A DNA stretch of 64,000 nucleotides from positions 1 through 64,000 of the forward strand of contig JAUXUN010000036.1 of the NCBI GenBank assembly GCA_030680855.1, given 5' to 3'. The DNA is from Aestuariivirga sp. (GTDB lineage: Bacteria; Pseudomonadota; Alphaproteobacteria; Rhizobiales; Aestuariivirgaceae). Position numbers and translations under genes: made by a program. The notes beneath the pieces were generated by a model. That model was not told the origin of the DNA. It ran no database searches and worked only from the letters and a program-made list of their open reading frames with translations. Below are positions 53,091-54,589 of this stretch, piece after piece (positions within the stretch are counted from its first letter, which is position 1; each line of letters starts with the position of its first letter).

Positions 53091-53280
53091 CGCGTGATCA
53101 ATTTTGTCGAATCGTAACTCCCTTATTTTCCTTCTCCCCGGCGGGGAGAAGGCGGGGCCCATCCGGCGTAGCGCAGCGAAGACGGATGGGAGGACGAGGG
53201 GGAACCGGTAATTCAATTGCGAAACCGGCTCCCCCTCACCTTCCCAACACGTGCGTGCTGGGCCCCTTCCTTGTAACTTA

Positions 53281-53448
53281 AATTCTGCCGCTTGTGGTAT
53301 CATGCCGGAAGCGGTGGCGGACGAGAGACCGTCCCTTCCGAGGGTGTTTGAGCCCGTGGGAGAGCTTGGGTCTTCGTCTGCCGTTCCATCGAACCCGAAC
53401 AGTCGCCTGGGCCGCTTGCGAAGCCCGCTTAGACAAGGATGGGATCAG
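53281..53448 (+). ncRNA. IS110 bridge RNA
   Basis: The non-coding left end folds into the three parts of a bridge RNA. A 5' hairpin uses CCGCTT (53288-53293) and AAGCGG (53309-53314). The target-binding loop has a 10-pair stem (53320-53330 with 53369-53378, one bulged G); its left guide CCCTTCC (53333-53339) equals the flank 53264-53270 and its right guide GGGAGAG (53358-53364) is complementary to 54421-54427. The donor-binding loop, closed by CCATC/GATGG (53386-53390, 53438-53442), has ACAGTCGC (53399-53406), equal to the right end plus the core C, and ACAAG (53433-53437), complementary to CTTGT at the left end. Ends of the RNA are estimates. Confidence 0.85.
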
Positions 53449-54405
53449 ATGGACGCCACCGCTCAAGAGCCTAATGCCTACGCCGGTATTGATGTTTCAA
53501 AGGACCGGCTGGATGTCCATATCCATCCCGCTGGAGAGGCCTTTTCAGTCAGCCGTGACGCGGCAGGGCTGGAAGCTTTGATCGAAAAGCTCAAGCCCTT
53601 GGCTCTCAAGGCTGTTGCCATGGAAGCGACCGGCGGTTTTGAATCTGCCGTCGTTGCAAGCCTTGCTGCTGTTGGACTGCCGGTGATCGTGGTCAATCCA
53701 CTGCAGGTGCGGAAGTTTGACGAGGCTCTTGGCAAGCACGCCAAGACAGACACTGTTGATGCTCTCGTTATCGCCCGCTTTGCCGAAGCCACCAAGCCTG
53801 AGATACGGCCTCTGCCCAGCGCGGAAACACTGGCTTTGGCTGATCTCATGGCAAGGCGCAGGCAGATCATCCAGATGATCACCGCCGAGCGTCAGCGCGC
53901 CATGCGGATCACCAATGCAAGCCTGCATAAAAGCATCGCCCGTGTGCTGAACGCCCTGACACACGAGCTTGCCAGCCTTGATGATGACATCGATACCACG
54001 GTGAGAGGCTCGCCAATCTGGCGTGAGAATGAGGATTTACTCAGCTCCGTTCCCGGTGTCGGCAAGGTCATCGCCCGCACCCTGCTGGCTGAACTGCCTG
54101 AACTCGGCACCCTTGACCGCCGGCAGATTGCCGTCCTCGCAGGACTTGCTCCCCACACCCGGCAATCCGGCAAATGGCGCGGCAAGAGCTTCATAAGCGG
54201 CGGTCGAACCTCATGCCGGACCGTCCTCTTCATGGGGGCCCTGGCCGCCGCCAAACACAACCCGGACCTCAAGGCCTTCCGTCAGCGCCTCATCGATGCC
54301 GGCAAGCCAAAAATGGTCGCCGCCATCGCCGTCGCCAGAAAACTCCTCACTATCCTCAACGCCATCATCAGGGATAAAGCACCATGGATGCAAAAAACAA
54401 CTTGA
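53449..54405 (+). CDS. IS110-family transposase (bridge-RNA-guided recombinase)
   Basis: A 318-residue recombinase. The N-terminal RuvC-like DEDD domain shows [15 protein letters not shown] (first D), [12 protein letters not shown] (E), and [13 protein letters not shown] (DxxD). A coiled-coil region follows. The C-terminal Tnp domain has [22 protein letters not shown] and [25 protein letters not shown], which holds the catalytic serine. The ATG at 53449 follows the bridge RNA directly; the frame is open further upstream only by chance. It looks intact and could be active. Confidence 0.95.
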
Positions 54406-54422
54406 TTTTTAACACAGTCGCT

Positions 54423-54589
54423 CTCCCCCAAGGGGCGAGGAAAAGCAGAGGCTGTCGCCGCATATAAAGGTGATCACGCTCTAGCTCCGGTGTCGGATTC
54501 CGCTCTGCCCCCGTCGCTCCACTTCACGTCTGTTGAATTTCTCTCACTAATGTGGCCAAAATCGAGTTTCCAGGTCCAAAGGATTTCCC
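54423..54589. other. Right remainder of the repeat and leader of the oxidoreductase gene
   Basis: This gap holds the right arm of the interrupted repeat (to 54484) and about 100 bases before the oxidoreductase ATG. I see no clear promoter or RNA element in the last part. Confidence 0.4.

Follow-up and report, generated by a model that had tools for sequence, protein, structure and literature searches.

A complete IS621-like insertion sequence of Aestuariivirga and the predicted bridge RNA that matches its target and its own ends

Within a 64,000-nucleotide stretch of DNA from Aestuariivirga sp. (the window; contig JAUXUN010000036.1), an IS110-type recombinase gene is preceded by 177 non-coding bases. 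This locus raises the question of whether those bases encode a bridge RNA, and whether its guides match both the site that was entered and the ends of the element. A preliminary description had placed an IS110 element with such an RNA at 53264-54427, and the protein family, the fold, the guides, the donor ends and the empty sites all bear this out. The element proper occupies 53272-54422 (plus strand), its borders given by donor ends conserved in relatives and by empty sites, and is a complete IS110-group (IS621-like) insertion sequence of 1151 bp with the single CT core counted. It occurs once in the host genome (3.73 Mb, 85 contigs). The ends, guides, fold, guide-flank covariation, empty sites and intact active-site residues can be read from the sequence, and with high confidence we regard the locus as a complete single-copy element whose left end would encode a bridge RNA for a repeat-located target and for the element's own circle junction.

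The recombinase (53449-54405, plus strand) has 318 residues and matches the Pfam families DEDD_Tnp_IS110 (5.5e-24) and Transposase_20 (2e-17). Only two solved structures match it at E <= 0.001, IS621 (8wt6, 6.2e-29) and ISCro4 (9t56, 1.9e-28). Alignment identifies D15, E59, D101, D104 and S240 as the equivalents of IS621 D11, E60, D102, D105 and S241, the catalytic residues as named in the accessible part of PMC11208158. The right end, from stop codon to core, measures 15 bases, and the position of the RNA in the left end is the layout of the IS110 group rather than that of IS1111.

Relatives were sought by a tblastn-confirmed scan of the genome_contigs collection, which gave 24 loci, and among plasmids, which gave 2622 records, of which 11 were taken; the protein has a match in 92 of 297 genomes of the order. 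Thirty-two elements were extracted from loci with recognisable donor ends. The loci whose ends the motif did not recognise were left unused; most stand at 34-45% identity, and L021, L024, L027, L028 and L030 are also among them. Seven stretches in viral_contigs matched a peptide pattern and none of these encodes a relative. The core had been described as C alone; it is the dinucleotide CT (53270-53271 and 54421-54422), as in IS621. CT stands on both sides in 28 of the 32 extracted relatives, a count to be read with the fact that the right-end search motif partly presupposes it, and the other four (L020, L083, L085, L086) have TT on the left and CT on the right. A TT-type core is tolerated by IS621 according to passages of PMC11208158.

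The left end folds, as proposed, into a 5' hairpin, a target-binding loop and a donor-binding loop. The predicted bridge RNA region spans approximately 53280-53448 (plus strand, as are all its parts) and draws on fold, covariation and a covariance-model search. It comprises a 5' stem-loop (53288-53314; 80% of cells paired), a target-binding stem and loop (53316-53382) with a 14-pair helix in which six pairs have changed on both sides, and a donor-binding stem and loop (53383-53445) that is based on the fold and the pair count. The predicted energy is -75.5 kcal/mol (z -2.8), and 2 of 200 dinucleotide shuffles are as stable or better. On an alignment of 20 left ends, a 33-pair structure, which was drawn mainly from the window's own fold and is somewhat favoured by that choice, has 90.4% of its cells paired, as against 40 to 56% when it is slid by 1-3 columns. 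In ten of its pairs both sides have changed, a number reached by 3 of 500 shuffles, and the covariation score of 0.219 compares with 0.110 +/- 0.010 in shuffles, none of 500 being as high. The target stem carries most of this support; in the outer helix of the donor stem none of the pairs shows a two-sided change, and its support is conservation only. The RNAalifold consensus missed the 5' hairpin.

The same 177 bases might instead be an N-terminal extension of the recombinase, because a frame runs from 53251 to 54405 without a stop across the entire left end and some relatives also have long open frames. This reading is hardly credible given that the left end shows base-pair-preserving changes and length changes, and that the IS621 protein aligns only from residue 10 of the protein that starts at ATG-53449. 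The open frame is probably a product of chance and shared descent.

No Rfam family reaches its gathering score on the left end. The sole weak match is to sX15, minus strand, with 20.4 bits where gathering requires 55, and was taken as chance; elsewhere in the window Rfam marks two tRNA genes on the plus strand, at 35328-35399 and 46583-46663. Of 397 genomes of the order, 31 have a left end recognised by the covariance model built from the 20 rows, 4 of the 31 having supplied model rows; in the class the numbers are 12 of 385, with 2 of the 12 having supplied rows. A recombinase match follows immediately downstream in 23 of the 35 matches that were examined.

Given a bridge RNA, its target loop should spell out the flanks. 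The left target guide CCCTTCC (53333-53339, plus strand) is present again at 53264-53270, and the right target guide GGGAGAG (53358-53364, plus strand) is the reverse complement of CTCTCCC at 54421-54427, both as claimed. The targets are therefore CCCTTC plus core CT on the left (53264-53271, plus strand) and core CT plus CTCCC on the right (54421-54427, plus strand), assignments made by direct reading and backed by empty sites and by the guide-flank test below, which also bears on the guides. The left guide fits at 7 of 9 positions, its mismatches being the outermost base and G53340 opposite the core T; it thus pairs with core C and not with core T.

The donor loop can be read in the same way. 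The left donor guide ACAGTCGC (53399-53406, plus strand) is identical, as stated before, to 54414-54421, that is, to the right end plus core C. Such agreement with the own right end holds in all 32 elements, including three variant forms (ACAGCCGC, ACAGTTGC and ACGGTTGC); the motif search presupposed the general donor form but not this agreement among the variants. The right donor guide had been given as ACAAG (53433-53437), which is indeed the reverse complement of CTTGT at 53270-53274, but it is better read as the nine-nucleotide, discontiguous TTAGACAAG, or TT(AG)ACAAG, at 53429-53437 (plus strand). Direct reading, the alignment and the IS621 pairing pattern in the available text of PMC11208158 agree on this. 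It would pair with CTTGTAA (53270-53276) through TT with A53276 and A53275, two flipped-out bases, A53433 with T53274, and CAAG with CTTG. Every row of the 20-row alignment has A or G before CAAG, a base that can pair with T, as G161 does in IS621. By analogy with IS621, two handshake bases on the plus strand are predicted: C53365 as partner of donor base G54420, with C and G in 32 of 32 elements, and G53438 as partner of target base C53269, which is C in 29 of 32 and T in 3. These pairs hardly vary and hence add consistency rather than covariation.

Guide order and strand polarity are those of IS621, as first described, and this extends to the core. The earlier judgement that four such matches are unlikely by chance is also upheld. 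When the 177-base left end is shuffled 20,000 times with its dinucleotides kept, the words occur singly in 554 (target left), 725 (target right), 22 (donor left) and 1265 (donor right), the two target guides occur jointly in 18, and all four occur together in none.

If the target loop specifies the site, guides and flanks should change together among relatives. This was examined in 22 of the 32 elements, leaving out seven near-copies (L071-L074 of L070, L085 of L083, L090 of L089 and L079 of L078) and the distant L026, L078 and L080, whose alignment is doubtful; in L026 the left terminus is duplicated in tandem. Ends were placed by conserved donor motifs and guides by alignment columns, and three left-guide registers were allowed for every pair alike. 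Guide pairs fit their own flanks at a mean of 13.09 of 16 positions and the flanks of others at 8.93. The preliminary description had named related copies with flanks that mismatch their guides as the finding that would speak against guidance; the comparison came out in favour of guidance. The observed sum of 288 compares with a shuffle mean of 200.7 and maximum of 237, and 0 of 20,000 shuffles, which ignore relatedness, reach it. The outcome is the same for the 19 closest elements alone (sum 249, shuffle maximum 216). For the window's guides the score is 14 with the flanks at which the element sits and between 6 and 12 with the other 21. Of the 22 guide pairs, 18 score no flank higher than their own, and in 13 of these the own flank stands alone at the top. 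If only the right guide is counted, the window's guide fits five further flanks as well as its own, because several relatives use CTCTCCC.

Such cross-matching raises the possibility that the guide matches are a by-product of relatedness, similar left ends lying in similar GC-rich repeats with no RNA guidance. Several relatives do insert at CTTCTCCC or CTCTCCCC, and their guides cross-match for that reason. The sister element L003, found in a genome of the same genus (G015) and contained as a sequence in L016 from a Hyphomicrobiales MAG, argues otherwise. Between it and the window's element, 20 of 178 left-end bases are different, and the 35-base target loop accounts for 13 of these. Identity is 59/62 ahead of the target loop, 22/35 inside it, 78/82 beyond the loop and 767/957 over the coding sequence. 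The L003 flanks, CGGCCAC-CT-TCTCCC, differ along with the loop and fit the changed guides of L003 itself. The four elements with TT on the left lie, like L003, in a CCACCTTCTCCC-type sequence, their position apparently shifted one base further. Beyond this pair, guides of quite another sequence occur in the elements of G182 and G729 and in L019 and L023, and they fit flanks that are likewise quite different. G729 entered neither the model nor the guide-flank test; all 10 of its copies lie at CGTC[G/A]TC-CT-GA[C/T]G and have a recombinase match, and the seven copies scored match their guides at 7-8 of 9 positions on the left and 5-7 of 7 on the right. As the shuffles also never reach the observed fit, we consider an origin in relatedness very improbable and retain guidance by the RNA.

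The site itself is a dispersed intergenic repeat that the element has split. The repeat spans 53091-54480, in two parts (53091-53271 and 54423-54480), has GCGTGATCA at its start and end, and is bordered on both sides by CTAG (53087-53090 and 54481-54484); without the insertion sequence this copy is 239 bp long. It lies between mobB and a dehydrogenase gene, with the mobB stop codon overlapping the first CTAG. The same gene pair is found in three sister species (G026, G007 and G015) with neither repeat nor insertion sequence between, and in G007 and G026 CTAG stands once at the locus, as against both sides of the repeat in the window. We infer that the repeat was inserted first and the insertion sequence second. 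In sequence the repeat looks like a MITE-type element with a CTAG duplication. Other copies free of the insertion sequence exist in the window's genome and in congeners, several of which share the middle part only and lack clear ends; the claim of a repeat is based on similarity to these copies and not on palindromes.

The 13-mer specified by the guides, CCCTTCCTCTCCC, has three exact sites in the genome and none in the reversed control. All three are in empty repeat copies, and the 13-mer is exact in 15 of 20 repeat copies compared. A search for the 15-base target with two mismatches gave 9 genome sites and 9 in the reversed control, hence only the exact sites are informative. A general hairpin preference of target sites was considered and is not supported, since z is -2 or lower at only 8 of 22 joined sites and -1.1 at that of the window. 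That IS110 elements enter extragenic repeats is already documented in the accessible portions of PMC1525189 and PMC11208160. Guides set to an intergenic repeat would presumably give the element a harmless landing place.

We propose that the element works as IS621 does, from which transcription from the circle junction, RNA-protein binding, cleavage and strand exchange are taken over. Joining of the ends in the excised circle would create a promoter that drives transcription of the bridge RNA. The target loop would then pair with CCCTTC-CT-CTCCC in a repeat copy and the donor loop with ACAGTCG-CT-TGTAA, the junction at which the element's own ends meet in the circle. Together with its bridge RNA, the recombinase would hold this junction and the repeat copy and exchange their strands at the CT core. 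For IS621, the part of PMC11208160 available describes a promoter that spans the circle junction. In the window, the proposed -35 box TTGATT (54402-54407, plus strand) would come to lie 17 bp ahead of the proposed -10 box TAACTT (53274-53279, plus strand), the two forming a promoter only in the excised circle. TTGA stands at that distance in 20 of 20 elements. The -10 hexamer is TAACTT in 18 of these 20, TAAGTC in one and TATCTC in one; TTGAC is found in the 19 other elements checked and TTGAT in the window alone.

This weakened -35 box, together with the presence of a single copy in the host genome despite three empty exact target sites, would be expected of a real element that is now a dead relic, its ends and guides kept only through recent insertion. 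Its open frame, all five catalytic residues and its intact ends and guides point the other way, as does the comparison with L003, in which identity is higher in the RNA scaffold (95%) than in the coding sequence (80%). We regard a relic as less likely than not. The same comparison between the scaffold and the recombinase gene suggests selection on the RNA.

An analysis of 2024 had already covered the bridge RNAs of thousands of IS110 elements (PMC11208160, as far as its text was available), so the family principle is known; the element had been called a new example, and no description of it was found. The literature covered consisted of titles, abstract openings and some passages, with preprints and most subscription papers outside, and within it neither this element nor solo bridge-RNA elements are described. 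The element is a new and well-documented member of the family, and it may be among those in the supplementary data of PMC11208160 or PMC11187229. It shares with IS621, as portrayed in the accessible passages of PMC11208160 and PMC11208158, the CT core, the RNA in the left end, the guide order LTG-RTG-LDG-RDG, an 8-nt LDG and a 9-over-7 RDG, as well as the DEDD and serine active site, insertion in extragenic repeats and, as a proposal for the window's element, the circle-junction promoter. It differs in that the protein match is only about 100 bits, the RTG match is 7 as against 4, target and host are other ones, and the window's element is known from sequence alone.

Among the plasmid matches listed, the closest IS-named relatives are ISMex17 and ISMno7 (names from plasmid annotations), with 58% and 53% protein identity; ends and RNA layout are common to them and the window's element, whereas target guides and flanks are different. 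Natural retargeting was reported for the seekRNA elements ISEc11/ISXne4 and ISEc21/ISMch6 (PMC11187229, accessible part), which likewise are close relatives with a changed target-defining part of the RNA. The window and L003, however, belong to two species of one genus, their scaffolds are 95% identical and the donor loop can also be read. The REP-targeting insertion sequences (PMC1525189, accessible part) similarly enter dispersed extragenic repeats at one fixed position, but that study is older than the RNA mechanism and the window's repeat looks like a MITE-type one with a CTAG duplication. The locus provides a natural test of bridge-RNA rules beyond the enteric model. Two elements in one genus with near-identical scaffolds and different target loops, each fitting its own site, point to retargeting by few loop-base changes, and the matched recombinase, RNA, donor and target offer a possible additional programmable recombinase to try.

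The donor loop has a further structural consequence. Since the gene for the left donor guide repeats the right end (ACAGTCG plus core), a direct repeat of 8 bases or more is present within every one of the 32 elements; in the window it is 8 bases (53399-53407 compared with 54414-54422), the next base being C, so that the core T is absent there. After the left donor guide, CT stands in 18 of 32 elements, CC in 13 (the window included) and CA in one. Every such element would thus carry a built-in pseudo-donor, and the recombinase, guided by its own RNA, might sometimes use it, deleting the transposase and leaving a mobilisable solo half-RNA element. We put this forward tentatively, as an idea more likely wrong than right. 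The CC and CA elements (14 of 32, the window included) would be protected from such use because the core T is missing, and a solo with intact donor ends would, if the idea is true, be movable by a full-length copy.

Solo elements were looked for in 35 of 55 loci taken from the covariance-model searches, excluding the window, further copies in G182, G729 and G419, model rows, and L144, L146-L148 and L152; 35 of 38 matches were examined, L183 (cut by a contig end) and two weak opposite-strand matches in L138 and L161 being dropped. L144, L147 and L148 have no recombinase match. In L161 (L161:1501-1638; G182:C1:177241-177378) the left end stops exactly at the donor guide ACAGTCG-CT and is followed by the right target GAGGTG. 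This solo element is 136 bp long with one core counted and has no transposase; judged by eye, the flank on its left, CTCATC-CT, fits the left guide, and five full copies are present in G182. Guided self-deletion and slippage between the 9-bp repeats would both explain this one solo copy in one genome. L163 (L163:1501-1652; G182:C1:1392932-1393083), which ends ACAGTCG-CTCTCC and has a decayed left terminus, is a doubtful solo candidate. L193 was rejected as a solo element; it is an IS110 relative with an ordinary internal deletion, as a result of which the target loop adjoins the end of the transposase gene.
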